From contig NZ_BLZO01000166.1 of NCBI RefSeq assembly GCF_014132355.1, positions 1 through 34,521 on the forward strand: 34,521 nucleotides of DNA. The letters run 5' to 3'. Both the position numbers and the translations under genes were made by a program. Under the pieces are notes generated by a model that saw only the letters and a list, made by a program, of their open reading frames with translations, searched no databases and was not told the origin of the DNA. Below are positions 7,852 to 34,521 of the stretch, in pieces (the stretch's first letter is position 1; each line of letters opens with the position of its first letter). Source of the DNA: Okeania sp. KiyG1 (GTDB taxonomy: Bacteria; Cyanobacteriota; Cyanobacteriia; Cyanobacteriales; Microcoleaceae).

Positions 7852-10800
7852 TAGGAGAAAAAATTATTTCGGAAGAGGATTTATCATTAACATTTGCAGA
7901 GGAATATCAAGTTTTAGTAGAGACTATTAGATTTACTGAAGGTTTTAGTTTATTGTTTGTGGAATGTTCCCCTGCACAGGGAACAAAAATTATGGAAAAA
8001 ATTCGCCTGGATATTCCACGGGAAAGAGCGGAAGTTTTGGCTTTAGATAAGAGTGTTTATAATTTTTATAATCTAGTTAAAGAATTACCTAATCTGAAAA
8101 AGATTGATATTTTGTTTGTGACTGGTTTGGAAAATTCTCTCTATGAATATGAGGGTGAAATGAGAGAAAGAGGTTTGGATAATCAAGAGATTATTTCTAT
8201 TAGTAGGAGGGGAGTTCCTCGTGTTTTAATGAATTTGAATCAGCAGCGAGAAAGGTTTAGGGATAATTTTGATATTTGCTTTGTGTTTTTATTGCCTAGA
8301 TTCGCGATAGATTATCTGATTAATCGTGCGCCAGATTTTTTTGATTGGCGTTCTGGGGTGTTTCGGTTTCCTATGAATAAGGAAATTTTCGATGAGGAAT
8401 TTTTAAAAGTTTCTACCAAAGAATTAGAGGATTATATAGAGCTTCCCCAGAAAGAATGTAAGGGTGAGTTGTTGAAAATTAAAGGTTTGCTTGATGAAGA
8501 TTTACTTCCTGTCGGGCAAAAAGCAAATTTGTTAATCAGAAAGGCTGCTCTAGACAGAAAGTTTAAGCAAAATGAAGAAGCAATATTAACTTGTGATGAA
8601 GCTTTAAAAATAGAAGCAAATAATTACAAAGCTTGGCACAATAAAGGCAATGCTCTGTCAGATTTAGGTGAATATGAAGAGGCAATTTCTGCTTTTGATA
8701 AAGTTCTAGAAATCAAACCAGATTATCACGAAGCTTGGTACAATAAAGGCAATGCTCTGTTAGATTTAGACAGATATGAACAGGCAATTTATGCCTTTGA
8801 TAAAGTTCTAGAAATCAAACCAGATTATCACGAAGCTTGGTACAATAAAGGCAATGCTCTGTTAGGTTTAGACAGATATGAACAGGCAATTTCTGCTTTT
8901 GATAAAGTTCTAGAAACCAAACCAGATTATCATGAAGCTTGGTATAATAAAGGTAATGCTCTGTTAGGTTTAGACAGATATGAACAGGCAATTTCTGCTT
9001 TTGATAAAGTTCTAGAAACCAAACCAGATTATCATGAAGCTTGGTATAATAAAGGTAATGCTCTGCGGAATTTAGGCAAATATGAAGAGGCGCTCGCTGC
9101 TTTTGAAGAGGCGCTCGCTGCTTTTGAAAAAGCTTTAAAAGAAATTGAACTAGACGACCTCAATAACTGGTACTTGAAAGACATGACTCTGTCAGATTTC
9201 AACAGATATGAAGAGGCAATTTCTGCTTCCATAAAATCTTTAAAAATTAAGTTAAAATATTTAGAAATTCAAATAAAATACTGCTCTGCATGGTTTCTTA
9301 GAGGCGTTACTCTGTCAAGTTTAGGCAGATATGAAGAGGCAATTTCTGTTTTTGATAAAGCTTTAGAAATTAAACCAGATAACTCAAATTACTGGTACTG
9401 GAAAGGCATTGCACTGAGAAAATTAGAAAGATATGAAGAGGCGATTTCTGCTTTTGATCAAGCTCTAGAAATTAAACCAGACAACAACGATGCTTGGTAC
9501 TTTAAAGGCATTACACTAGAAGATATGGGCAGATATGAAGAAGCAATTTCTGCTTTTGATCAAGCTTTAGAAATTAAACCAGACAACAACGATACTTGGC
9601 TCTTTAAAGGCATTACACTGAGAAATTTAGGCAGGTACGAAGAGGCAATTTTTGCTTTTGAAAAAGTTTTAGAAATTAAACCAGACCAATACGAAGGTTG
9701 GCACAATAAAGGCTATACTCTATATCGTTTAGGCAGATATGAAGAGGCGATTTCTGCTTATGATCAAGCTCTAGAAATTAAACCAGACCAAGGCACAGGT
9801 TGGAACAATAAAGGCTACACTCTGTTATCTTTAGGCAGGTATGAAGAGGCAATTTTTGCTTATGATAAAGCTCTAGAAATTAAACCAGACCAATACCAAG
9901 CTTGGCACAATAAAGGCACTGCTCTACATAATTTAAACAGATATGAAGAGGCAATTTTTGTTTATGATAAACTTCTAGAAATTAAACCAGATAAACACTA
10001 TATTTTGCACAACAAAGGCAATGCTCTCTTAGATTTAGGAAGATATGAAGAGGCAATTGTTGCTTTTGATAAAGCTTTAGAAATTAAACCAGACAATGAC
10101 AATATTTGGAATAATAAAGGCAATGCTCTCTTAGATTTAGGAAGATATGAAGAGGCAATTGTTGCTTTTGATAAAGCTTTAGAAATTAAACCAGAAAACG
10201 ACGATACTTGGTACTTTAAAGGTGTTACTTTGTCAAATTTAGGCAGATATAAAGAGGCAATTTATGCTTTTGATAAAGCTTTAGAGATTCAACCAGGCGA
10301 CGACAATACTTGGTACTTTAAAGGCGTTACTCTGTCAAATTTAGGTAGGTATGAAGAAGCAATTTATGCTTATGATAAAGCTCTAGAAATTAAACCAGAC
10401 AAATACCAAGCTTGGCACAATAAAGGCACTGCTCTGTTAGATTTAGGAAGATATGAAGAGGCAATTTTTGTTTATGATAAAGCTCTAGAAATTAAACCAG
10501 ACAAATACCAAGCTTGGCACAATAAAGGCACTGCTCTGTTAGATTTAGGAAGATATGAAGAGGCAGTTGTTGCTTTTGATAAAGCTTTAGAAATTAAACC
10601 AGAAAACGACGATACTTGGTACTTTAAAGGCGTTACTCTGTCAAATTTAGGCAGATATGAAGAGGCAATTTTTGTTTATGATAAAACTCTAGAAATTAAA
10701 CCAGACCAATACCAAGCTTGGCACAATAAAGGCACTGCTCTGTTAGATTTAGGCAGATATGAACAGGCAATATCTGCTTATGAAAAAGCTTTGGAAATTC

Positions 10801-12191
10801 AACCAGATAGCGACATTACTTGGTACTTTAAAGGCGTTACTCTGTCAAATTTAGGTAGGTACGAAGAGGCAATATATGCTTATGATAAAGCTTTAGAAAT
10901 TCAACCAGACTATCACAAAGCTTGGAACAATAAAGGCAATGCTCTGTTAGATTTAGGCAGATATGAACAGGCAATTACTGCTTTTGATAAAGCTTTAGAA
11001 ATTCAACCAGACTTTGACACAGCTTGGCACAATAAAGGCTATGTACTGAAAAGTTTAGGCAGATATGAACAGGCAATTACTGCTTTTGATAAAGCTTTAG
11101 AAATTGAACCAGATAACGACAATACTTGGTACTTTAAAGGCGTTACTCTGTCAGATTTAGACAAGTATGAACAGGCAATTTCTGCTTATGATCAAGCTCT
11201 AGAAATTAAACCAGACTTTGACCAAGCTTGGGACAATAAAGGCAATGCTCTGTTAGATTTAGGCAGATATGAAGAGGCAATATCTGCTTTTGATAAAGCT
11301 TTAGAAATTGAACCAGACAACTACGATGCCTGGAAAAATAAAGGTAATGCACTGTCAAACTTAGGCAGATATGAAGAGGCAAAATTTGCCTTTGATAAAG
11401 CCTTAGAAATTCAACCAAAACACTGCTATTTTTGGTGCTTTCACGGCGTTGATATGTCAAATTTAGGCAGATATATAGAGGTAATATATGCTTTTGAAAA
11501 AATTTTAGAAATTCAACCAAAAAACTATAATGCCTGGTGCTTTAAGGGAATTGCCCTGTCGCACTTAGGCAGATATGAAGAGGCAATATCTGCCTTTGAT
11601 AAAGCCTTAGAAATTCAACCAAAAAACTATAATGCTTGGTACTTTAAAGGCATTACCCTGCCAAACTTAGGCAGACATGAAGAGGCAATTGCTACTTTTG
11701 ATAAAGCTTTAGAAATTCAACCAGACGACCACTATGCCTGGTACTTTAAAGGCATTGCCCTGTCAAACTTAGGCAATTATAAACAGGCGATCGCTGCTTT
11801 TGATAAAGCTTTAGAAATTCAACCAGACGACCACTATGCCTGGTACTTTAAAGGCATTGCCCTGTCAAACTTAGGCAATTATAAACAGGCGATCGCTGCT
11901 TTTGATAAAGCTTTAGAAATTCAACCAGACGACCACTATGCCTGGTACTTTAAAGGCATTGCCCTGTCAGATTTAGGGAGATATGAAGAGGCAATATCTG
12001 CTTATGATCAAGCTCTAGAAATTAAACCAGATGACCACTATGCCTGGTACTTTAAAGGCATTGCACTTATAAAATTAGAAAAAGGGGAAATATCTAGTCA
12101 AGCCATAAAAAATATTCTTACTAAAATAGGGTGGTATAAATTGAAAGAAACTTTTCCTAAACTTTTGAGAATTATAGGTGTAAGAACCTGA
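7848..12191 (+). CDS. Large TPR protein 1 with degenerate NTPase-like N-terminal domain
   Basis: An intact protein of 1447 residues starting at ATG 7848, which overlaps the ATPase stop. Residues 1 to about 200 form a domain shared with the protein at 15189: GFSLLFVECSPAQGTK, IDILFVTGLENSLYEYE, a GVPRVLMNLNQQRERFRD helix, FVFLLPRFAIDYL and PDFFDWRSGVFRF. The pattern resembles a STAND-type NTPase core in which the Walker A lysine loop has become ECSPAQG, so it is probably inactive (inference). From about residue 220 to 1400 there are about 34 TPR units of 34 residues (consensus AWYFKGxALxNLGRYEEAIxAFDKALEIKPD). Two adjacent units near 11740-11945 are identical at DNA level. Unit 6 has an eight-residue internal duplication. 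The superhelix probably binds a protein or nucleic-acid ligand. Cytosolic; no signal peptide. Confidence 0.88.
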   Translation: MIGEKIISEEDLSLTFAEEYQVLVETIRFTEGFSLLFVECSPAQGTKIMEKIRLDIPRERAEVLALDKSVYNFYNLVKELPNLKKIDILFVTGLENSLYEYEGEMRERGLDNQEIISISRRGVPRVLMNLNQQRERFRDNFDICFVFLLPRFAIDYLINRAPDFFDWRSGVFRFPMNKEIFDEEFLKVSTKELEDYIELPQKECKGELLKIKGLLDEDLLPVGQKANLLIRKAALDRKFKQNEEAILTCDEALKIEANNYKAWHNKGNALSDLGEYEEAISAFDKVLEIKPDYHEAWYNKGNALLDLDRYEQAIYAFDKVLEIKPDYHEAWYNKGNALLGLDRYEQAISAFDKVLETKPDYHEAWYNKGNALLGLDRYEQAISAFDKVLETKPDYHEAWYNKGNALRNLGKYEEALAAFEEALAAFEKALKEIELDDLNNWYLKDMTLSDFNRYEEAISASIKSLKIKLKYLEIQIKYCSAWFLRGVTLSSLGRYEEAISVFDKALEIKPDNSNYWYWKGIALRKLERYEEAISAFDQALEIKPDNNDAWYFKGITLEDMGRYEEAISAFDQALEIKPDNNDTWLFKGITLRNLGRYEEAIFAFEKVLEIKPDQYEGWHNKGYTLYRLGRYEEAISAYDQALEIKPDQGTGWNNKGYTLLSLGRYEEAIFAYDKALEIKPDQYQAWHNKGTALHNLNRYEEAIFVYDKLLEIKPDKHYILHNKGNALLDLGRYEEAIVAFDKALEIKPDNDNIWNNKGNALLDLGRYEEAIVAFDKALEIKPENDDTWYFKGVTLSNLGRYKEAIYAFDKALEIQPGDDNTWYFKGVTLSNLGRYEEAIYAYDKALEIKPDKYQAWHNKGTALLDLGRYEEAIFVYDKALEIKPDKYQAWHNKGTALLDLGRYEEAVVAFDKALEIKPENDDTWYFKGVTLSNLGRYEEAIFVYDKTLEIKPDQYQAWHNKGTALLDLGRYEQAISAYEKALEIQPDSDITWYFKGVTLSNLGRYEEAIYAYDKALEIQPDYHKAWNNKGNALLDLGRYEQAITAFDKALEIQPDFDTAWHNKGYVLKSLGRYEQAITAFDKALEIEPDNDNTWYFKGVTLSDLDKYEQAISAYDQALEIKPDFDQAWDNKGNALLDLGRYEEAISAFDKALEIEPDNYDAWKNKGNALSNLGRYEEAKFAFDKALEIQPKHCYFWCFHGVDMSNLGRYIEVIYAFEKILEIQPKNYNAWCFKGIALSHLGRYEEAISAFDKALEIQPKNYNAWYFKGITLPNLGRHEEAIATFDKALEIQPDDHYAWYFKGIALSNLGNYKQAIAAFDKALEIQPDDHYAWYFKGIALSNLGNYKQAIAAFDKALEIQPDDHYAWYFKGIALSDLGRYEEAISAYDQALEIKPDDHYAWYFKGIALIKLEKGEISSQAIKNILTKIGWYKLKETFPKLLRIIGVRT
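8620..12060 (+). repeat. 102-bp coding tandem repeat (TPR array)
   Basis: Units of 102 bp encode the 34-residue TPRs. Neighbouring copies are very similar at DNA level, with identical synonymous codons in blocks, which indicates recent recombination or unit duplication rather than old divergence. Confidence 0.85.
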
Positions 12192-13759: not shown

Positions 13760-15123
13760 TGGAATTTTTTCTACTATTGCGTATAGGGCAATCATTAATT
13801 CATTTTCTGAAGCACCATAACTTGAGAGGTGAGTAGGGAAATTTTTCTACTATTACGTATAGAGCAATCATTAATTCATTTTCTGAAGCACCATAACTTG
13901 AGAGGTGAGTAGGGAAATTTTTCTACTATTGCTTATAGAGCAATCATTAATTCATTTTCTGAAGCACCATAACTTGAGAGGTGAATATGGGATTTCTCTT
14001 CTATTGCGTATAGAGCAATCATTAATTCATTTCCTGAAGCACCATAACTTGAGAGGTGAATATGGGATTTTTCTACTATTGCGTATAGAGCAATCATTAA
14101 TTCATTTTCTGAAGCACCATAACTTGAGAGATGAATATGGAAATTTCTCTACTATTACGTATAGGGCAATCATTGATTCATTTTCTGAAGCACCATAACT
14201 TGAGAGGTGAATATGGGATTTTTCTACTATTGCTTATAGAGCAATCATTGATTCATTTTCTGAAGCACCATAACTTGAGAGGTGAGTAGGGAAATTTCTC
14301 TTCTATTGTGTATAGAGCAATCATTGATTCATTTTCTGAAGCACCATAACTTGAGAGGTGAATAGGGAAATTTCTCTACTATTACGTATAGAGCAATCAT
14401 TGATTCATTTTCTGAAGCACCATAACTTGAGAGGTGAATAGGGAAATTTCTCTACTATTACGTATAGAGCAATCATTGATTCATTTTCTGAAGCACCATA
14501 ACTTGAGAGGTGAGTAGGGAAATTTCTCTTCTATTGTGTATAGAGCAATCATTGATTCATTTTGTGAAGCACCATAACTTGAGAGATGAGTAGGGAAATT
14601 TCTCTTCTATTGTGTATAGAGCAATAATTAATTCATTCTCTGAAGCACCATAACTTGAGAGATGAGTAGGGAAATTTCTCTACTATTACGTATAGAGCAA
14701 TAATTAATTCATTCTCTGAAGCACCATAACTTGAGAGATGAGTAGGGAAATTTCTCTTCTATTGTGTATAGAGCAATCATTGATTCATTTTGTGAAGCAC
14801 CATAACTTGAGAGGTGAATATGGGATTTTTTCTACTATTGCTTATAGAGCAATCATTGATTCATTCTCTGAAGCACCATAACTTGAGAGATGAGTAGGGA
14901 AATTTTTCTACTATTGCGTATAGAGCAATCATTGATTCATTTTATGAAGCACCATAACTTGAGAGGTGAGTAGGGAAATTTTTCTACTATTGCGTATAGA
15001 GCAATCATTGATTCATTTTATGAAGCACCATAACTTGAGAGATGAGTAGAGAAATTTTTCTACTATTGCTTATAGAGCAATCATTAATTCATTTTATGAA
15101 GCACCATAACTTGAGAGGTGAAA
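13760..15123. repeat. 76-bp tandem repeat array, about 18 copies
   Basis: Each unit contains GCACCATAACTTGAGAGGTGA and a small hairpin, ATTGC-GTATAGA-GCAAT. Copies start about every 75-77 bp from 13811 to 15101, judged by the CACCATAACTTGAG core. The unit length is not a multiple of three, so no long protein is encoded. Variation is limited to a few positions: GTGTATAG, ACGTATAG and CTTATAG loops, and TTTTCTG, TTTGTG or TTATG. There are no unique spacers, so it is not CRISPR. It fills the whole gap between ATPase 2 and TPR protein 2, genes that overlap in the first module. Each unit has an AGGTGA Shine-Dalgarno-like word; in five or so it is followed by ATG. Confidence 0.92.
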
Positions 15124-15188: not shown

Positions 15189-17219
15189 GTGAGTATCTCA
15201 AAAGCTATGAACCAAGATTTAACAGACTGGGATGAGAATTTATTGAAAGACCCAGAAACAGAATATAAAGCTATAGTTAGGTCTCTCAAAAGAACGTCTG
15301 GTTTTAGATTATTGTTTGTAGAATGTTCTCCTGCAGAAGGAAGCAAATTAATTGAGAAAATTAAGGAAGATATTCCTCAGAAAAAAATCGAAGTTTTGCG
15401 GTTAAATGAACCAACAAATAATTTATATAATTTGGTTGCTGGTTTGCCCAATAGACAGGATATTAATATTTTATTTGTGACAGGACTGGAAAATTCTCTG
15501 TATGAATATGAGTTGAATAAACTGAAAAATGGTTGGAGTAGTAATGAGAGATATAATTACAGTGAAAAGGGTGTACCTCCGATTTTAAGTCACCTCAATC
15601 AACATCGAGAAAAATTCAGAGATGACTTTAATATTTGCTTTGTTTTTATCCTGCCTGTGTATGCTTTGAAATATTTTATTCATCGTTGTCCAGACTTTTT
15701 TGATTGGCGTTCTAATATATTTGAATTTAAGTCTGACCCAGAGTTAATAGCTCAAGAATCATCTCGAATTATTCAGGAATCAGATTATGAAAAATATCAG
15801 AGTTTAACTTCTGAAGAAAGAAGGCAAAAGTTTTTGGAGATTCAAGATTTAATCGAAGATGAAAATAATAGTGATGAAGAGAAAGGAAAGCTATTATTGG
15901 AACAGGGATTAATACTAACATTAGAAAGTAAAAATGAAGAGGCGATATCTGTTTGTGAAAAAGCTTTAGAATTTAAACCAGACTATCACAGAGCTTGGAA
16001 TGCTAAAGGTATTGCTCTGAGAAATTTAGAAAGATATAAAGAGGCGATCGCTGTTGATGAAAAAGCTCTAGAAATTAAACCAGACTATCACCATTCTTGG
16101 AACAATAAAGGCATTGGTCTGTATTATTTAGGTAGATATGAACAGGCGATTTCTGCTTCTGATAAAGCGATAAAAATTAAACCAGACTATCACCAAGCTT
16201 GGTTTATTAAAGGAGTTGCTCTGAGAAATTTAGAAAGATATGAAGAGGCGATCGCTGCTTGTGAAAAAGCTTTAGAATTTAAACCAGACTATCACAGAGC
16301 TTGGTTTATTAAAGGCATGGTACTGAAAAATTTAGGCAGATATGAACAGGCGATTTCTGCTTATGATAAAGCTTTAGAAATTCAACCAGACCATTATACT
16401 TGGAACGATAAGGGAGATGCTCTATTAAATTTAGAAAGATATGAAGAGGCACTTGCTGCTTATGATAAAGCTCTTGAAATTAAACTAGACTACCACTATG
16501 CTTTGGGAAATAAAGGAGATATTCTGTATTCTTTAGGCAGATATGAAGAGGCGATTACTACTTTTGAAAAAGCTATAGAAATTAAACCAGACTATCACTA
16601 TGCTTGGAATTTTAAAGGTTTTGTACTAGAAAAATTAGAAAGATATGAAGAAGCGATTACTGCTTATGAAAAAGTGATATAAATTAAACCAGACGATGAC
16701 TATGCTTGGAAAAACAAAGGAGATGCTCTGTCAGATCTAGGCAGATATGAAGAGGCGATCGCTGCTTATGAAAAATCTATAGAAATTAAACCAGACTATC
16801 ACTATGCTTGGTATGGTAAAGGTAATTTATTCTTACAGTTAAAATTTTATCAACAAGCAATAGTTGCTTATGAAAAATCTCTAGAAATTAAACCAGACTA
16901 TGAAAGTTCTATTACTAATATTGGCTTAGTTAAATATGAAATGGGAAAAATAGATGAAGCAATAGAACATTGGCAAGCTCGAACTGAAATTAATAACCAA
17001 TTTGTAGAACCTAAATTAGCAATAGGAGTTGCCCTCTATAACAAAGGCAAAATTACTGAAAGTTTAATAATAGCTGAAGCAGCACTAAAATTAGACAAAA
17101 GTTGGGGAAACTTGCAGCGTCTCAAAAAAGAACTTTGGGGCGACAAGCTATTAGAAGATGCAGCAAAATTATTAGAAAATCCTCAGATAAAAGTCTTACT
17201 ATCAGAGAATGAAGAGTAG
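15189..17219 (+). CDS. TPR protein 2 with degenerate NTPase-like N-terminus (one in-frame nonsense codon)
   Basis: A paralogue of TPR protein 1. The N-terminal domain (residues 1 to about 195) repeats the same blocks: GFRLLFVECSPAEGSK, INILFVTGLENSLYEYE, LNQHREKFRDDF, CFVFILP and PDFFDWRSNIFEF. About 12 TPRs follow, then the tail LLEDAAKLLENPQIKVLL. The frame is broken by a single TAA at 16680-16682, where the repeat consensus has GAA (E of the EIKPD block); the same frame continues to 17219, for 676 codons in all. As written, a 497-residue protein with about eight TPRs would be made. The start could be GTG 15189 or ATG 15207; no strong ribosome site decides it. Its partner ATPase is also broken, so this second module may be decaying as a unit. 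Confidence 0.82.
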
Positions 17220-17728: not shown

Positions 17729-17788
17729 GGAAGGGTAATTATCCATTATCCATTAATAAAATAATTATTGATTAATAAACAATTAGAT

Positions 17789-20700
17789 ATGGCAAATGAA
17801 TTAAGGGAAGGAGATAATCTAGTTCCCGTTAACTATGACAGTTTGTTAGAACAGATTTTAAAGAAATTATCAGAACAAAATCTGTTTAAAATATCGAGTG
17901 ATCGCCGACGTTTACTGATAAATATTGATGAGGTAGCTGCATCTATTGCTACTACAAATATTCAAAATCCTTTAAGTACTACGAAAGGTGTTCGTGTTGC
18001 TAGTGTAAATTTTGTAAACCGAGAAAAATTTCTGACTCAAATACAAGAAATAAAAGACTATTTGATAACTAATTTAGAATCTACAGAAGGAATAGGAGAT
18101 ATTGCTAGTTTTGTCGATAGTTTAATTGTGAATTTAACAGATTTTCAAGGGCGTGCTAGTAAACTAGGTTTAGCTTATCCTTTTGATGAACAATACACAA
18201 AATTGGAAAAACAAGAGTTAATTTTAGATTCTCAACTTCCTGGTAGTAATTCCTTACTAAAATTTCATAAACTGACAATTACAGTGGGAAATATTACCGA
18301 GTTTCAGTCTCAACTAAAGGAAGGAATTAGACGTAATATTCAAAACAATTTTGATTCGGACGATCCAGAAGATATTGAAGATGTTTATAATCTTTTAGAA
18401 AAAAAATTGAGGACAAAAATTCAGATTTTAACCAACTACAAAGACTGGTAGATGAAGAAACGTTAGGGAAACTGAAAAAAGAAGCAAAAATTATATACCT
18501 CAAACATTTACTAGATAATATTGAAACTAATGATAAGTCAGGAGTTATTTATCTGACAGATTTAATTCGGCGTTTGAGGTTAATTGAGCAATATATTAAT
18601 GATGAGTCTAAAGCGGATGGATATTATGATGTTTCTTATGCTGGAGAAAAATTTAATTACCGGGATATTTTTGCGCGTTCTGAAGTTTTTGACGCACTAC
18701 CAATTATTCCAATTATTGATGGTAATTTGGGAGAAACTACAAATCGAGAAACAGGAGAAACTCAATTTGTTTTGGGTTTGAAAATGAAATTAGATGGCAA
18801 AGTACAAGCTAGGGGTGGAAAAGAAGTATTTGATTATAATTTGGAGATAATTACTCATAATAATCAGGAGGAAAATGAGGAATTAAAGGCTAATCCAGAG
18901 AAAAATAAAACTTGGGCCAGAAAAATATTGACGCGAGCATTTTTATACTATTTTGTATTTTCTTGCCCAGACCCAAATGGAAAGAATTATCATTCCGATG
19001 ATGAGTTAAATTATAAGCCTATCCCTAAATTTGATGAAAATGTTTTGCCTGTATTGAAAGGAGATAATGATGATGAAAAAGATAGTATTTTTCGGAGGTT
19101 GGTAAGAGGATTTAAGAAATATAGGGTGAAGCAAAAAATCGAGAGTTTAAGGATTTTAGTCAGAAACTTTTTAGATAGAGGTAAAAAATTACCTAACTGT
19201 ATAGAAAGGCGGGAAATTTGTATTAATAAAAGAATTATCAAAACTGATGATGATAGTTTGTTTCAAGGTAATTTTTTTCACGATGATTTAAGAGAGAATT
19301 ATAAGAAATGTCTGAGGTATATTTTTCTAGTTAAGGAAGCAACAAATAATCGAGCAGTATGTCAGCTACCTGCAAGTATCAAGATAGAAGATGTCCGTTA
19401 TTTTGAAGGAAGCGATCGCCAAAATTTTCAGTGGGAATATGATGTAAAAGGAATTAAAGCATTACCTGTAATGTGGATACCTGATACAAATCCCTGTTGG
19501 AAAATTTATCACGAAAGTTTTGTGCAGAAAGGATATAAGTTTATTCTGTTTAGTTACAAGAATCAACGTTTAAATCCAGATAAAAATCAATTAAATTCGA
19601 CTCAAGCATTTATCTATCGTTTTACTTGGATATTGTTATCTTATCTTTGCCTACATATTTTATTAGAGCAATATTCAGGAACAGAAAAAGAATTATTTAT
19701 TCCGATGGTGCGACTCCATGAGGGAACCCATGAAAATCCTTTTCCTGCTGAAAAATTTCTAGCTAATCTTGCCAAAACATTAGCTTTTATTTTCAGTAAA
19801 AAATATCGGTGTAACTCTCAAGGATTTCGGGTAAGTAACAGTTATATTAGAAATGGTTTAAACTCCCTATATTCTGTATTGCCAAAAAAGTTTAGCTTCG
19901 AGCATAATTCTGACTCTACCTTATTAGATAAACTGGCAATTATTATTGTCTCAAGTAAACTGAGCGACTCCAGAACAGGTAGTCAAAACCGTAAAGATAG
20001 AATCGCCAATTTATTCGGGGAAGTAATAAGTATTGAACGGTTAAAAAATGGCAGTGTAAAAATTCAACCTTTAACGACATTTTTTGATAATTATCGACTC
20101 CAAAATATGTATGAGGAACCACCTATTTTAATAGATACAATCAGCGAACTTTGTTTACAAGGATATCGACATTTTTTATATGTGGCACAAGCACCTTATA
20201 CCAGTACATTACATATTACTCAACAAGAGGAGGAAGAGAGACTATATTTCATGTCACCTACTATTATTAAAGCCATGAAGCAAAACCGAGATGACATTAA
20301 AATATATCCTGTATTTTTGATAAATATTATGTACACAAATTAAAATTAAAAAAACAGGAGGTGAAATCTTTGTATATTCAAGATACTCGCCAATTAATGA
20401 ATATTGCTGAAGATAGTAGTCAAAAATCAGTGGTATTTTTCAATTTGTTTAATGGCATTTCTGTCGGTGGGAAAAAAACTGAGGATGAGCGATTTTATAA
20501 TGGCGTTGTTTCCTATTCCACTCTGTTAGGAAAATATTATTCTGGGGTGATGGATGATGAGGATATTCGGCAAGGTTTAGTTTATGATAGTGGGTTGAAA
20601 AATGATATTCTTCAATATTTGACTTTTTTCCATTTTTCCCGGTATGAGAAACAGGAGAAAAATAGTAGTAACCTAACTTTAAAATTAGACCCTTATGAAA

Positions 20701-20825
20701 ATATTATTGGTGATGAAGCATTGGGAAGTTTGGCAATTTTTCGTCAGATGACAGAAAGTATTGAGTTTAATGCTTTGGCTTTTTTGACAGAAGTTAATGA
20801 TGCTGTTGATGGAGTTGATTTTTAA
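17789..20825 (+). CDS. Large protein of unknown function, about 1012 residues (two -1 frameshifts)
   Basis: I do not recognise this family. ATG 17789 (MANELREGDNLVPVNYDSLL) is the likely start. The frame shifts by -1 at an A8 run (18399-18406), where one extra A gives LLEKKIEDKNSDFNQLQRL, and by -1 at a T5 run (20314-20318), where one extra T gives IYPVFFDKYYVHKLKLKK and joins it to the frame ending at 20825. Corrected length is about 1012 residues. No P-loop, zinc cluster or signal peptide is visible. A central aromatic and basic region contains KALPVMWIPDTNPCW; the C-terminal third has GYRHFLYVAQAPYTSTLHI and LYFMSPTIIKAMKQN, perhaps an alpha/beta domain. It lies upstream of a helicase on the same strand, so a joint role is inferred. 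A Shine-Dalgarno-like AGGAGGTG at 20357-20364 could allow internal initiation at TTG 20370, producing the last 152 residues separately. Confidence 0.7.
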
Positions 20826-20861
20826 TGGGAGGTGGGAAAAATAAGTTTTAAATAAATAGTA

Positions 20862-22523
20862 GGAATATTTCAAAAAGTGGAAAATTTTGAAGATATCTAT
20901 ATCTATATTTAAGAGCTAGAAAAAATCTGCTTTTACCTGAAATATCTCTGTGAGGTAGACTTTGATACTCTCAGGCAAAATCTCTGAATTTTCGGTAAAA
21001 CTCAGAAAGTGGAAAATTATGAGGATATCTATATTTAAGAATCCGAAAAAATCTGCCTTTACCTGAAATATCTCTGTGAGGTAGACTTTGATACTCTCAG
21101 GCAAAATCTCTGAATTTTTGGCAAAACTCAGAAAGTGAAAAATTTTGAGACTATCTATATTTAAGAATCCGAAAAAATCTGCCTTTACCGAGAAATATCT
21201 CTCAGGTAGACTCCTACATTCTGAGGGAAAATCTCTCAAATTTTGGCAAAATTCCGAAAGTGGAAAATTCTGAGACTATCTATATTTAAGAATCCGAAAA
21301 AATCTGCCTTTACCTGAAATATCTCTGTGAGGTAGACTTTGATACTCTCAGGCAAAATCTCTGAATTTTTGGCAAAACTCAGAAAGTGAAAAATTTTGAG
21401 ACTATCTATATTTAAGAATCCGAAAAAATCTGCCTTTACCGAGAAATATCTCTCAGGTAGACTCCTACATTCTGAGGGAAAATCTCTCAAATTTTGGCAA
21501 AATTCCGAAAGTGGAAAATTCTGAGACTATCTATATTTAAGAATCCGAAAAAATCTGCATTTTCGGTAAAACTCAGAAAGTGGAAAATTCTGAGGATATC
21601 TATATCTAAGAATCCGAAAAAATCTGCCTTTACCTGAGATATCTCTACTAAGTAGACTCTGATATTCTCAGGCAAAATCTCTGAATTTTCGGCAAAACTC
21701 AGAAAGTGAAAAATTTTGAGAATATCTATATCTAAGAATCCGAAAAAATCTGCCTTTACCTGAGATATCTCTACTAAGTAGACTCTGATATTCTCAGGCA
21801 AAATCTCTGAATTTTCGGTAAAACTCAGAAAGTGGAAAATTCTGAGGATATCTATATCTAAGAATCCGAAAAAATCTGCCTTTACCTGAGATATCTCTAC
21901 TAAGTAGACTTTGATACTCTCAGGGAAAATCTCTGAATTTTCGGTAAAACTCAGAAAGTGGAAAATTCTGAGGATATCTATATCTAAGAATCCGAAAAAA
22001 TCTGCCTTTATCTGAAATATCTCTGTGAGGTAGACTTTGATACTCTCAGGGAAAATCTCTGAATTTTCGGTAAAACTCAGAAAGTGGAAAATTCTGAGGA
22101 TATCTATATCTAAGAATCCGAAAAAATCTGCCTTTATCTGAAATATCTCTGTGAGGTAGACTTTGATACTCTCAGGGAAAATCTCTGAATTTTCGGTAAA
22201 ACTCAGAAAGTGGAAAATTCTGAGGATATCTATATCTAAGAATCCGAAAAAATCTGCCTTTATCTGAAATATCTCTGTGAGGTAGACTTTGATACTCTCA
22301 GGGAAAATCTCTGAATTTTCGGTAAAACTCAGAAAGTGGAAAATTCTGAGGATATCTATATCTAAGAATCCGAAAAAATCTGCCTTTACCTGAAATATCT
22401 CTCTCAACTAGACTTTGATATTCTGAGGCAAAATCTCTGAATTTTCGGCAAAAGCCAGAAAGTGGAAAATTTTGAGACTATCTATATTTAAGAATCCGAA
22501 AAAATCTGCCTTTAGCTGAGATA
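20862..22523. repeat. 126-bp tandem repeat array, about 14 copies
   Basis: Units of 125-126 bp share AAGAATCCGAAAAAATCTGC and a hairpin CTCAGAA-loop-TTCTGAG, with a partial unit near 21555. A two-unit block of 251 bp is itself repeated (21037, 21288, 21539), showing higher-order duplication. 126 is 42 codons, and the minus strand stays open across nearly the whole array in three frames (20916-21239, 21236-21490, 21487-22407), with a 42-residue repeat containing KADFFGFLDIDILRIFHFL. Those ORFs lack clear ribosome sites or unique sequence, so they may be a by-product of the period. The array fills the gap between the large protein gene and the helicase gene. There are no spacers, so it is not CRISPR. 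Confidence 0.9.
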
Positions 22524-22580
22524 ATGTTAATTGAAAAACTTGAGTAACCTAAAACTACTATCAATCAAAAGGATAAAAAT

Positions 22581-25500
22581 ATGTCACTTGCTGAAAATTT
22601 AGGACGTTTATTTGAAGTGGGATTTAATATTGGCGTACTTGCTGATATTCAACACCAGAAATATCCAAATTACTTTGGTGATTTATATCATCAAGATTTA
22701 GAGAAACTCAGATTACCAACTTTGGTTAGGAAAATCGCAGATGCAGAGAAAATATCTAGCGAAGGGAGTATTAAAAATCTGGAAAGATGGAGTCAATATT
22801 TTATTCAGAAAGGATTTATTGCTGGATTAAATTTTTTCCGTGAATATATCAAGTCAACTGCTTGGAAACTCCACCTCAGAAAACCGGAAGTTTTATACTA
22901 TCAATGTAGCTTTGATGGAGATAATGCTTTTGGTTGTAACCCCAAGGATAAACAAAAAGTAACTAGAAAATTATTATCTCAATTTTTATCTACTGATATT
23001 TTAGATAGTCAATTAAACAATTACGTTACTAAGTACCACAAAAAAGGAGAGTTTTTACAAGCAGATACTTTAATTTTGTTACGTTATCGGAGAGAAATTA
23101 GAATTATTTGTGTAGATTTGTCGATATTTTCAATCAAGTCAGTGGAAGATTTATTATCACTGGATAATATAGAAGTATTGCGCCGAATCTTGATGAGAGA
23201 TATTAAACATATACGCTCTAAAAGTGTTTTTTCTAAACTGCGAATAGATACAGGAGATGCTCAGGATTTTGGTTTAGAATTTTTCCCAGATTTGAAACGA
23301 TATTTTACTGCTTTTAAACGTAAGGATAAGGAAACGATTAAGTTGATTCAAGCTGGTGCTTATGCTTATAGTTTCTATAATTTTCTCCAGAAAGAAACCG
23401 ATATATTAGATAATTCTAAGTCATTACTTTTTAATGCAGTAGGATATAGCGATCGCAACATTAGTTCTCTCTGTTTACAACCCAAAAATATTAATATTCT
23501 TGAGACTTGTGCAGATATCTATCAAAATGAACCGAAAGAGAAAGAGATAAAAGTTGCTCGTCAGGAAGTATTGGAAAAAATTAAACTTAATGCCAAAAAG
23601 AGTTTTCAAAATGGGAGAAAGTTTGCTCAAGAATTATCTGTAGAAAATATTTATGGGAAGGGGGATAAGATTACTCCAGTAGTTCATCAAGAAAAAATTG
23701 ATGGTTTCTTTAATTCAGTCGGAATTATCCCAGATGAGTTAGCAAAAGAAATGGATGTTACTCCCAAGTTAACTTTAAGAAATGCTCATGCTGAATTAAT
23801 TACAAAAGCTCTGAAAAGTGATAAAACTTATGTATTTTTAACAGGTAATCCAGGTATAGGAAAAACCACAGCGATCGCCAACTTTCTTAAATCTCATATA
23901 GATGGCGGATTTTTATTATTTTATGTTAGTCCTCGCACTCAAGTTAACGTCGATTTAATCAATAAGTTTAAATCTAAAACTGACGATTCTTTATGCAGCA
24001 ATAATATATTTGGTCTCACCACTAATTCCATTCTGATTAAAGAAAATAATGGCAAACCTACAGTTAGTTATCATTCCAATCTCCGTCAAGATAATTTCAT
24101 TAAAAATACTGTCAATTTTATCCATAAGGGTTTAGTTTCCAAACATCCCCAAAAAACTGCCCGTAGAAAGTCGCGATTTTACAGAGAAACTCAAGATAAT
24201 ATTAAAGATGTTGGGGAAAAAAGTGCAGGAGTTCTCGATAGTATCTGCCAGGGAATATCTGCCACTATTAATCAAAATATCTCTAATAGTATTGTCGCTA
24301 CAGTCTCTATTCAATCCTTAAGAAAAACATCAAATGGTGGAGATACTCTTAAGCATTTCCAGAAAATATTTCAAGATGCTTATAACCGAGATACAGGTGT
24401 GATGCCTGAAAAAATGCAAGAAATTTCTCAGAGAATAAAGAATATATTCATCATGATAGATGAAGTAACAGGAGATGATAGTGGGGTAAATTTTTTGCAT
24501 GGAATTAAGGAATTTTTGAAAGATTACGATTTGACTAACCCTGAATTTGGATTTAATACAAAAGTTATTGTCGCTGATGCTTCTATTGTCGAAAAAGAGG
24601 TTATTAAACAACACTTATCTCAGACTTCTCCAGAACCAGATAAAATTTATTTTCGTTCCGTAGGGGCGATTCACGAATCGCCCCTACAAGTCGAGACTTT
24701 TGAATTTAATAAACAATCAGCAATTGCTATTAATGCTAATTCTTATCCTGCTAGTAGTTTAGATATAACTTATAAAGTTTTCCTCGAATGTTATAAATTT
24801 AATGAAGCCAAATTTAAAGATGACAATAAGGAATTAATCAAAAGGGTTCAGGAAAGTATTTTATCCGATATAAATTTATATTTGGATAATTCCGAATCTA
24901 GTCAAATCTTAGTTTATATTCAAGACAAACAGAAATTACAAAAATTAATAGAAAAATTAGTAAGTCTCGAAAATTTGAACAATATACAGACTATCTAGAA
25001 ATACACGCTAATTTATCCGATGAAAAAAAGAGCAAAATTGAAGGATGTAAACAAGACGTCAAAGTTGTATTTATGACATCTTCAGCAAGTCGAGGTTTAT
25101 CCTTTCCTAAAGCCAAAATAATGTTAGTAGAAATTCCTAAATTTCAAATAGAAAGAAATTTAATGGAAATCATACAAGTTATCTATAGAGCACGGGGAGA
25201 ATATTGGGAAAATAACACAGCAAAAACTTTAGATAATCAACCAAAACAAATAACCTTTTATTTGAACGATCGCGCCATTTCTTACCCTCAAGAAGAAAAT
25301 ATATCTCCACAAGAATATACTGAAGAACAAAAATTATCCTTAGCAGAAAGTTTATTAAATATCTGGGATATTTTATTAATTCTCAAATTGTCAATAATGA
25401 CACGAATAACTGGTGCAGGTAGTTTAGGAATGAAACAATTTATGATGATTCCTATTGGTGGAAAATCTATTTCTGCTGCTGGAAATACATTTAGTAGTCA

Positions 25501-26322
25501 AGTGACAAATCTCATTAGAGAATTAAAAAATGAACATCGTCGTCATCCTCAAAAACAAACTCTTAAAGATGTTTATACAAGTTTGACAAAAATTTTTAGT
25601 AGTGCAGATTTTGTCTTACTTGAAGATGAAAATAAATCTAAAAATCAGATTCCCAATATCGTTCTTATCTTTCACTGATAGAATCTTTTAACCAAAAATT
25701 TTCCCACTATTGTCACCGACTTGATAGATTACTAGATTTTGGCAATATCGAAACAGGTCATCTCACAGGCAATTTATTAGTAGTTCATATTTCTGAACAT
25801 AGATTAGAAGAAACTTATTTGATGAAATTAGAATCACAAATTAGACAGTTTGCTAATGATGAATTAGTCGAAAAAATGAAAAAAATTAGCAGAAATAAAG
25901 ATTATCCGCCTAATCTCATATCTGCAATGGAAGGTAGCGTCTTAGAATTTGTTGAATTGCTCAAGGGAGATATTAATAGAACCCAATGGTTTGAACAAAA
26001 TAGTCAAAATTTAGACCAATATTATGCTCTACCATTATTTGTATTTATGAGTCTAGAAGTGATGAGTGAATATTTTAAAACTGAACCTGAAGAAGAAGAA
26101 GAAACAGAATTTAGAACCCTATTATCTAAATATGTTCATGACCTTTATCCCGCATATAATACCCTACCTATTGGTCGAAAATATCGGGAATTTCCATTTA
26201 TCGTTTTTCGCAGTTATAGTTTAGGAGAAATGCGAGAAAAAATTTATAGCGATCGCTATCTTTTAACTTCCAATGAGTTAAATATTCTCAACTTAATTCT
26301 TTGTCGAGATGAGAAAGTCTGA
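22581..26322 (+). CDS. Helicase-like ATPase, about 1247 residues (two -1 frameshifts)
   Basis: It starts at ATG 22581 after AAAAGGATAAAAAT. The N-terminal 400 residues are unrecognised; a segment ADTLILLRYRREIRIICVDL could be a diverged nuclease strand pair, but this is weak. Walker A is GNPGIGKTTAIANF (about residues 421-434); Walker B is IFIMIDEVTGDDSG (about 622-635). A motif V-like FMTSSASRGLSFP lies at about 830, and a motif VI-like QVIYRARGEY at about 862. The order and spacing suit a superfamily 1/2 helicase. The frame breaks by -1 at A5 24952-24956 and at A5 25640-25644; one added A at each gives natural joins (KLIEKISKSRKFEQYTDYLE and NKSKKSDSQYRSYLSLIESF). A perfect 28-bp palindrome (24660-24687) lies within the coding frame. 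Probable role: remodelling nucleic acid together with the 1012-residue protein. Confidence 0.75.
24660..24687. repeat. 28-bp perfect palindrome inside the helicase gene
   Basis: Arms GTAGGGGCGATTC and GAATCGCCCCTAC flank a 2-nt centre. This is a widespread cyanobacterial dispersed palindrome. Here it is read as protein (VGAIHESPLQ) without stopping the frame, between the two ATPase motif regions. Confidence 0.88.
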
Positions 26323-27744: not shown

Positions 27745-27872
27745 ACTGAAGGGAATTATCAAGTTGGCTAGAAATAATTTAGGCATTAGGAAAGACTTAC
27801 TAAAAAGTATTGATTTTCTAATTAAATGTCGCTCAAAACCAAATAAATGATGCTTACTTTGAATTTTCTCTT

Positions 27873-27938
27873 GTAGGAGTAGGTTGAAAAATAATCTTTA
27901 CAGCTTCAGCACAAAGAAAAATTCAAACCTCCTCCCAC
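27873..27938. repeat. Imperfect inverted repeat, GTAGGAGTAGGTTGAA type, copy 1 of 3
   Basis: GTAGGAGTAGGTTGAA pairs imperfectly with TTCAAACCTCCTCCCAC around a loop of about 34 nt. Near-identical copies lie at 28118-28183 and 28439-28505, each just beyond a real or copied arsA 3' end. It may act as a terminator for arsA transcripts and was copied with the gene tails. Confidence 0.7.
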
Positions 27939-27953
27939 AAAAAAATAACTACC

Positions 27954-28361
27954 CTAAACTTTTACCGCTTCAGCAAACCTAATCTTAAAATAATCATCCT
28001 CCATTTTTTCCCCCCAGGTTAACGCTGCCAAAGCTTGAGGCAAAACCAAATTCCGACGATGATTACCAATTCTAATATTCAACTCATCCCCAATTTTATT
28101 CAATTGAATTTTCTCTTGTAGGAGTAGGTTGAAAAATAATCTTTACAGCTTCAGCACAAAGAAAAATTCAAACCTCCTCCCACAAAAAAATAACTACCCT
28201 AAACTTTTACCGCTTCAGCAAACCTAATCTTAAAATAATCATCCTCCATTTTTTCCCCCCAGGTTAACGCTGCCAAAGCTTGAGGCAAAACCAAATTCCG
28301 ACGATGATTACCAATTCTAATATTCAACTCATCCCCAATTTTATTCAATTGAATTTTCTCT
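27954..28361 (-). pseudogene. Two tandem fragments of the arsA 3' end
   Basis: 27954-28116 and 28199-28361 (minus) each encode about 53 codons matching the end of the intact ars[19 protein letters not shown], then [17 protein letters not shown] and a stop. They differ from the intact gene at the same positions (ALTWGEKM in place of ALQPAGAKM), so one was copied from the other after diverging from arsA. They have no start. They could be remnants of an ancestral tandem arsA array or repeat-driven copies. Nothing else is seen from 27745 to 28521. Confidence 0.82.
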
Positions 28362-28521
28362 TTTAGAAGTATTGATTTTCTAATTAATTAAATGTCGCTC
28401 AAAACCAAATAAATGATGCTTACTTTGAATTTTCTCTTGTAGGAGTAGGTTGAAAAATAATCTTTACGCCTTCAGCAAAAGAAAAAAATCTAAACCTCCT
28501 CCCACAAAAAAATAACTATGC

Positions 28522-33390: not shown

Positions 33391-34521
33391 CTATACCCAT
33401 TCCAAAACAGCTTCTTGCTTTGTATTAGTGCGACGTTCGGGGGTTTCACGATTGAACTTCATGTGTATAGAGCGGTTTTGTTCGCCATCGACAGCCACTG
33501 CCATAATAGGATAATCAATTAAACCATCAGGGAAGGCCATCTGGAAACGGAAAGTACCATCAGAGTTGAGTTTAATAGGTCGTCCGCCAATAGTGACAGT
33601 AGCATCCGGTTCCGTTGCACCGTAAATAATAAGTTCGGCATCAGCAACTAACCAGAACTTGCGTGGGCGAACTGGTGGCATAGAAGCAGCAACACCGGAC
33701 ATATTCATGCCCATGCCTGAAGCAGTTAAACCGACACCAGACATATTCATGCCCATGCCGGAAGTGGTTAAACCAATACCAGACATAGTTTGACCTACAC
33801 CTGAAGCAGTTAAACCAATACCAGACATATTCATGCCCATGCCGGAAGCAGTTAAACCAACCCCTGACATACTCATGCCCATGCCCATACCGGAAGTGGT
33901 TAAACCAATACCGGACATAGTTTGACCTACCCCTGAAGCAGTTAAACCAACCCCTGACATACTCATGCCCATGCCCATGCCTGAAGTGGTTAAACCAATA
34001 CCGGACATAGTTTGACCTACACCTGAAGCAGTTAAACCTACACCGGACATAGTTTGACCTACACCTGAAGCAGTTAAACCAATACCAGACATATTCATGC
34101 CCATGCCGGAAGCAGTTAAACCAACCCCTGACATACTCATGCCCATGCCCATACCGGAAGTGGTTAAACCAATACCGGACATAGTTTGACCTACCCCCTG
34201 AAGCAGTTAAACCAACCCCTGACATACTCATGCCCATGCCCATGCCTGAAGTGGTTAAACCAATACCGGACATAGTTTGACCTACACCTGAAGCAGTTAA
34301 ACCTACACCGGACATACTCATGCCCATGCCCATGCCTGAAGTGGTTAAACCAATACCGGACATAGTTTGACCTACACCTGAAGCAGTTAAACCTACACCT
34401 GAAGCAGTTAAACCAATACCGGACATAGTTTGACCTACACCTGAAGCAGTTAAACCTACACCTGACATACTCATGCCCATGCCCATGCCTGAAGTGGTTA
34501 AACCAATACCAGACATAGTTT
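33391..34521 (-). CDS. DUF4912 protein with Met/Gly repeat region (5' end outside window, one frameshift)
   Basis: The C-terminal about 100 residues (PRKFWLVADAELIIYGATEP, VTIGGRPIKLNSDGTFRFQM, GEQNRSIHMKFNRETPERRT) match the cyanobacterial DUF4912 family, a beta-rich domain of unknown function. Upstream is a long low-complexity region made of 8-11 residue units such as MSGIGLTTSG, MGMGMSMSGVGLTASG and VGQT, reaching the window edge. The frame breaks at a C5 run (34194-34198) where all sister repeats have C4; removing one C joins the two halves. The Met/Gly repeats could form a flexible surface or a phase-separating segment (inference). The true start is not in the window. Confidence 0.8.
33660..34521. 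repeat. Met/Gly-coding tandem repeat
   Basis: Short units built from the plus-strand words GAAGCAGTTAAACC, GACATAGTTTGACC and CATGCCCATGCC alternate in irregular order. They encode the low-complexity region of the DUF4912 protein. Copy number and order are likely unstable, and short-read assembly here may be unreliable. Confidence 0.85.

Follow-up and report, generated by a model that had tools for sequence, protein, structure and literature searches.

The question raised by this locus is what two very large adjacent genes of the cyanobacterium Okeania sp. KiyG1 encode, and what they are for. The genes, here called P1 and P2, lie on the (+) strand of contig NZ_BLZO01000166.1 (positions 1 to 34,521; the window refers to this whole stretch of 34,521 nucleotides). 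The original prediction, made from the letters of the window, had described them as adjacent same-strand genes separated by a tandem repeat array and had proposed an uncharacterised two-gene phage-defence system; the frames and an array of 126-bp repeats between them were found. P1 and P2 form a unit, as computed from their pairing and co-divergence. P2 is a superfamily 2 (SF2) helicase, and the predicted model of a P1 relative has an Argonaute (MID-PIWI) fold. The reading favoured here, by analogy and with moderate confidence, is that a highly divergent Argonaute-fold protein and an SF2 helicase would constitute a guide-directed system against mobile elements, similar in action to ApsAB or DdmDE.

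The pairing was examined in relatives (L and G numbers designate loci and genomes). A GTDB genome scan gave 233 relatives of P2; the locus analyses use the best 80 of these 233 (79 from cyanobacteria, one from Ktedonobacter, Chloroflexota). Seventy-two of the 80 extend 1000 bp or more beyond P2 on its upstream side and are testable. In 70 of the 72, P1, whole or partial, precedes P2 on the same strand; it is missing upstream in L135 and L163. The description as a two-gene system is upheld by this co-location, and the objection that homologues might be scattered unpaired fails. Loci were selected by P2, so that P1 genes without P2 would escape this count. Of the 70 pairs, 30 are no more than 20 bp apart (overlaps counted), 52 no more than 300 bp and 68 no more than 3.5 kb; the gap is wider in L121 and L130. 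A spacer of 300 bp or less is too short for the array, which therefore does not belong to the pair in most relatives. P1 and P2 distances are correlated across 66 main-clade loci (r = 0.95, a value that none of 500 label permutations reached and that shared descent alone would also make high). In a distant branch of 11 loci, the upstream protein (1055-1207 residues) is related to P1 in all: ten are detected by the P1 profile when its filters are disabled (E <=2.1e-14 in a search of 11 sequences), and the eleventh, from Acinetobacter, has a profile E of 0.001 and a best BLAST match to the others of 9e-42. Default profile filters recover seven of these 11.

Variants of the layout were seen. L116 and L125 have an additional P1 downstream of P2 and in its orientation; in L116 the start of a second P2 comes next. 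In L091 (Okeania sp. SIO2C9), the first 61-73 codons of P2 are present in three copies between P1 and P2 (5786-7295, spacing about 662 bp); G293 has a similar pattern. Several kb of other genes separate P1 from P2 in L121, L130 and L070, including members of a kinase-like cluster in L121 and L130. Two candidates were rejected. A helicase without fixed partner does not agree with finding P1 at 70 of the 72 testable loci. For G131 (L063 and L163, which are one place) another partner was considered, but the upstream protein, of 670 residues, is related to RNase II, so P2 is orphaned there.

The original prediction had found no recognisable domain in P1 and had suggested a search for PIWI or RNase H folds. 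The first statement holds for the sequence: searches of Pfam, NCBIfam, PADLOC and PDB sequences gave only stray sub-threshold matches, which were not used (among 29 P1 proteins, Penicillinase_R from Pfam in three, best 0.005; ZorA2 from NCBIfam in one, 0.0018; PADLOC JetC in one, 0.0066, and DrmC in one, 0.0076; PH_SPT16 on one piece from the window, 0.0027). It does not hold for predicted structure, where the PIWI guess was right. The fold search used the predicted model of the P1 homologue L085, not the window protein. All Foldseek matches of this model in the PDB with E <=0.001 are Argonaute, Piwi or short-Argonaute chains, one vaguely titled entry excepted; the top VIA rows are of the same kinds, again with one such exception. 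The matches span the MID-PIWI part of the model. DdmDE chains are not among the 50 matches listed for this search, an absence that is uninformative.

The canonical DEDX catalytic residues look lost in P1: at positions placed by strand order, without a residue map, the first strand has V/S, strand 4 is followed by A/S-K/Q-A-P and the last helix carries F. Other acidic residues are conserved in the 82 aligned rows (D730 in 80, E748 in 74, D839 in 74, D963 in 78). The MID-like motif keeps Q in 81 rows, G in 82 and K718 in 75. No conserved Y-x3-K is found: position 659 is F in 70 rows and Y in 7, and position 665 is K in 46.

The helicase announced for P2 is real. Two RecA-like domains carry SF2 motifs I, II, III, V and VI, with Walker A GNPGIGKT and motif VI Q..YR.RG. 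The PDB sequence search gave general helicases only for the P2 family (and nothing useful for the P1 family). Unused stray matches to PADLOC models (mad8 in 10 of 30 proteins, 2.4e-6; MkoA in three; PDC-S49 in one, 8.5e-7; Avs1b on a piece from the window, 5e-5) are read as the shared NTPase/helicase core. The N-terminal 375 residues are a putative PD-(D/E)XK-like nuclease: their alpha-beta-beta-beta-alpha-beta topology and residues E87 (29 of 30), D158 and D/E175 fit this fold; the xK element is absent, K246 and K250 being conceivable substitutes. No fold is assigned to the C-terminus (about 925-1200).

In the window, P1 (17768-20825, +, about 1012 residues once corrected) and P2 (22581-26322, +, about 1247) each consist of three overlapping frames with two frame changes per gene. 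The unbroken pair of Okeania sp. SIO2B3 (L103) was used as reference. The features are given below.

17768..18451, +: P1 N-terminal piece, open frame; residues 1-217 of Okeania L103 P1 (1022 residues)
18391..20343, +: P1 middle piece; residues 212-852 of L103 P1
19813-19824, +: MID-like NSQG in the P1 middle piece; Q conserved in 81/82 and G in 82/82 rows
19927-19956, +: DKLAIIIVSS, first strand of the PIWI-like region, in the P1 middle piece
20301..20825, +: P1 C-terminal piece; residues 853-1022 of L103 P1
20628-20642, 20682-20693 and 20766-20786, +: P1 C-terminal motifs FHFSR, KLDP and FNALAFL
20900..22523, no strand: 126-bp tandem repeat array, the P1-P2 spacer; present in L103 as well
22581..24998, +: P2 N-terminal piece; residues 30-822 of L103 P2 (1277 residues)
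23046-23066 and 23112-23123, +: motifs GEFLQAD and VDLS of the nuclease-like N domain of P2, conserved in relatives
23844-23870, 24459-24476 and 24573-24584, +: P2 Walker A GNPGIGKTT, DEVTGD and ADAS, conserved in relatives
24902..25678, +: P2 middle piece; residues 814-1050 of L103 P2
25088-25108 and 25175-25198, +: motif V SRGLSFP and motif VI QVIYRARG in the P2 middle piece
25642..26322, +: P2 C-terminal piece; residues 1051-1277 of L103 P2

The region including the array is 88-90% identical to L103 at the DNA level, and the pieces jointly span residues 1-1022 of its P1 and 30-1277 of its P2. Little beyond the frame is lost, and the corrected lengths of 1012 and 1247 originally proposed are about right. 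The ratios of nonsynonymous to synonymous substitution rates (dN/dS) against L103, 0.27 for P1 and 0.25 for P2, indicate coding content under purifying selection across this divergence, unlike chance open frames. The four frame changes could stem from errors in sequencing or from recent decay; if they are real, the system is inactive in Okeania sp. KiyG1. That this copy, taken by itself, is a defunct remnant that no longer has a function is a serious possibility, which we rate at a little under even and which is compatible with any reading of the family. The four changes spread over both genes speak for it, as does an interruption of the gene in the genus mate G296. Against it, the copy keeps nearly all residues under the dN/dS just given, and two further long helicase genes of the same genome (RecQ-like and SNF2-like by the author's reading) are split likewise and pheT is whole, a pattern that fits uncorrected indel errors in the assembly.

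Other features of the window lie outside the pair. A 207-residue frame directly after P2 (26346-26969, -) is without family match; the flank containing it is 95% identical in L091. A 76-bp unit is repeated about 18 times at 13761-15121 (93% match). Arrays of a 102-bp unit (8629-12064 and 15934-16901) lie within genes that are TPR-like by eye, the second being broken at 16682. A 245-bp unit is tandemly duplicated at 27859-28371 (99% match), and nested repeats of 42, 90, 132 and 264 bp cover minus-strand frames at the window end (33690-34465).

P2 is found in 41 of the 292 sampled cyanobacterial genomes and 25 of the 116 genera (window genome and distant branch counted). Intact copies are frequent among the relatives. 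Within the genus of the window it is present in four of six genomes, its own included, with a relative at 90% protein identity in G294 and no match in two of the five genus mates searched. Matches were found in 11 of 72,556 plasmid records (seven cyanobacterial, two from Acinetobacter, one from Cupriavidus, one from Acetobacter). Phage defence is not borne out: the P2 query has no match in 50,697 phage records, pattern-based scans of IMG/VR for P1 and P2 gave no relative, and the nearest system, ApsAB of Escherichia coli, is antiplasmid and without effect on the eight phages tested, according to excerpts of its description (PMC11096173). A viral origin is rejected as far as tested by these same searches. 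Canonical Piwi (PF02171) is found in 25 of the 292 genomes and shared with P2 in only three (G099, G197, G203), against about 3.5 expected by chance (41 x 25 / 292), which indicates no association; in these three, P2 lies on another contig or megabases away.

The proposed action is as follows. P1, probably a catalytically dead Argonaute, would be loaded with a small nucleic-acid guide and would locate foreign DNA, with plasmids and other mobile elements as the likeliest targets and phages as possible ones; P2, its partner motor, would unwind and cut this DNA. We infer that P1 binds a guide and no longer cleaves through its PIWI region, that P2 has a nuclease and that the pair acts against mobile elements. 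Several results weigh against this proposal. The link of P1 to Argonautes comes from predicted structure, with low Foldseek TM-scores (0.17-0.36), and the hhalign probability between P1 and canonical prokaryotic Argonautes (pAgos) is 0.4%; this test is weak, as the published relation between pPIWI-RE and PIWI scored just 1.2% in it. The usual D-x-K lysine of the putative P2 nuclease is missing (VDLS or E-FSYN is found instead), and this domain failed all sequence comparisons: no relation was found to Cas4, PDDEXK_1 or restriction endonuclease (REase), in a test where the control Cas4/PDDEXK_1 failed as well (0.7%). Two large genes downstream of the pair on Trichormus plasmid C (15689-23733 of L039) have only weak matches to PADLOC TmtA. 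Finally, 37 of 76 copies are at two recurring sites beside housekeeping genes, which is unusual for defence genes.

These sites are as follows (gene names by the author's sequence reading). In Nostocales the pair is often between purQ and trpE/psaD, and in Microcoleaceae between pheT and bcp/hpf/lipB; of 76 rows of the P2 tree, 18 are at the former, 19 at the latter and 39 at neither, some of these on short contigs. Sixteen of the 19 pheT-site rows belong to one clade (support of 100 in the Shimodaira-Hasegawa-like approximate likelihood ratio test), and the three site labels need 10 changes on this tree against a shuffled mean of 31.8; the tree roughly tracks taxonomy. The TPR and NTPase modules that the original prediction noted next to the genes do not belong to the conserved unit; recurring neighbours at other loci include housekeeping genes. 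The commonest neighbour cluster, a mixed kinase-like family, lies at distances that vary from locus to locus. The recurring families listed include only one transposase-like family near P2 (8 loci, scattered distances), which also speaks against a helicase without fixed partner. Copies on plasmids have other surroundings; neighbours were scanned on three plasmids. On Nostoc pNPM2, Mokosh MkoA (8.8e-214) is found 4.7 kb from the pair, then MkoB (4e-67) and, beyond it, a gene annotated as DncV-like nucleotidyltransferase. A PDC-S37/Hhe-like gene adjoins the pair on an Acinetobacter plasmid. On Trichormus plasmid C (L039) the pair is preceded, at a distance of about 1.2 kb, by an integrase gene.

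Fixed sites would also be expected of a chromosome-maintenance pair, in which the Argonaute-fold protein and the helicase would resolve replication or repair intermediates and descend vertically. The site counts, the single pheT-site clade, the few label changes and a dN/dS of about 0.25 agree with this, and the cyanobacterial pAgos SeAgo and LrAgo are tied to cell division under topoisomerase inhibitors in excerpts of PMC10269773. It is nevertheless held to be unlikely: the distribution is patchy even among genus mates, 39 of 76 rows lie outside both sites, copies are carried by plasmids and by a Chloroflexota genome, and defence genes are nearby on two of the three plasmids scanned. Far less probable still is a P2 derived from, or acting as, a CyRepA1-like plasmid-replication helicase, the pair serving the replication of a resident element. 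One of 30 P2 proteins matches NF042913 (2.4e-5), as does one P2 locus (G229, 3e-4), and an alignment of the stretch from motif II to motif V has a probability of 4.9%. These are weak values, the unrelated-partner control DinG scores similarly against CyRepA1 (3.1%), and many copies are beside housekeeping genes. The resemblance of the P2 core to CyRepA1, seen in one of 30 members, may point to a source of the helicase in evolution.

The pair could instead be a true member of the ApsAB/DdmDE superfamily, as a cyanobacterial branch with rearranged domains. ApsAB and DdmDE were compared with the pair by description, not by sequence. In excerpts of PMC11096173, ApsAB shares the two-gene logic (a large SF2 helicase, with a nuclease in ApsA, and an inactive Argonaute-like partner visible by structure only) and the QG of the MID-like motif, kept in P1; ApsAB-like systems are also reported there in some cyanobacteria. 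In the same excerpts, the helicase gene is first, whereas the Argonaute-like gene is first here; the ApsA nuclease is C-terminal with D..DVK, that of P2 would be N-terminal; the ApsA motifs GFGKS, DELH, SAT and QAVGRVER differ from GNPGIGKT and Q..YR.RG; ApsB is described without PAZ and without the PIWI RNase H fold, whereas the P1 model matches MID-PIWI; and the full Y[X]3K[X]nQG[X]nK motif is not kept in P1. Because of the gene order, the missing Y-x3-K and the helicase motifs, the pair is not filed as ApsAB, and true membership is judged quite improbable, more so than chromosome maintenance and less so than the CyRepA1 relation. Some of these loci may already stand in the supplementary tables of that paper; for this reason, and because related systems are said to occur in some cyanobacteria, the pair is not claimed as a new category. 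No description of it was found in a full-text search of open-licence literature. PADLOC scans of P1 and P2 proteins gave no Ddm match, the presence of Ddm models in the library being unchecked. DdmE is shorter than P1. The likeness to DdmDE lies in an inactive Argonaute partner recruiting a helicase-nuclease, as told in excerpts of PMC12904381.

Two other groups were compared. As described in part of PMC3702460, pPIWI-RE systems also have a PIWI protein of about 1000 residues, an SF2 helicase and a restriction-type nuclease, and occur in cyanobacteria; the P2 N domain may have a short resemblance to their helicase (probability 18.7%, E 0.0013). They consist of three genes (REase, DinG helicase, PIWI-RE), and six of eight cyanobacterial pPIWI-RE loci have sizes and order that fit this triad, whereas only P1 and P2 recur in the mapped loci. 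PF13032 (RNaseH_pPIWI_RE) is found in none of 29 P1 proteins (E up to 0.1; hhalign 0.1%), and P2 has no clear relation to their DinG helicase (11.3%, a Walker A match). By profile and by gene arrangement, the pair is not a pPIWI-RE system. Long and short pAgos share the predicted MID-PIWI fold; their PF02171 is found in none of the 29 P1 proteins (E up to 0.1), and no P1 locus is among the Piwi matches of the 25 genomes. By hhalign, P1 showed no relation to pAgo, pPIWI-RE, DinG, REase or P2, with a weak positive control. The pairing of inactive pAgos with nucleases and helicases is already known, according to excerpts of PMC6299218.

A bolder reading, held tentatively, is that P1 would represent a third lineage of bacterial PIWI proteins, next to pAgo and pPIWI-RE. 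Together with a nuclease-helicase of its own, it would have reached cyanobacteria early, and two large lineages would then have fixed it at chromosomal loci as near-resident guided plasmid surveillance, not moving like ordinary defence genes. If the favoured reading of guided action against mobile elements is right, a family of Argonaute-fold proteins of about 1000 residues, whose partner gene is carried by 41 of the 292 cyanobacterial genomes sampled, would have been overlooked in annotation because no scanned sequence profile detects P1. The PIWI world would be wider, and helicases or helicase-nucleases steered by an inactive Argonaute would gain one more architecture. An anti-mobile-element system that two lineages retain at fixed chromosomal sites would be out of the ordinary, and the pair would offer a testable reason why plasmids might be poorly taken up or retained in some filamentous cyanobacteria.

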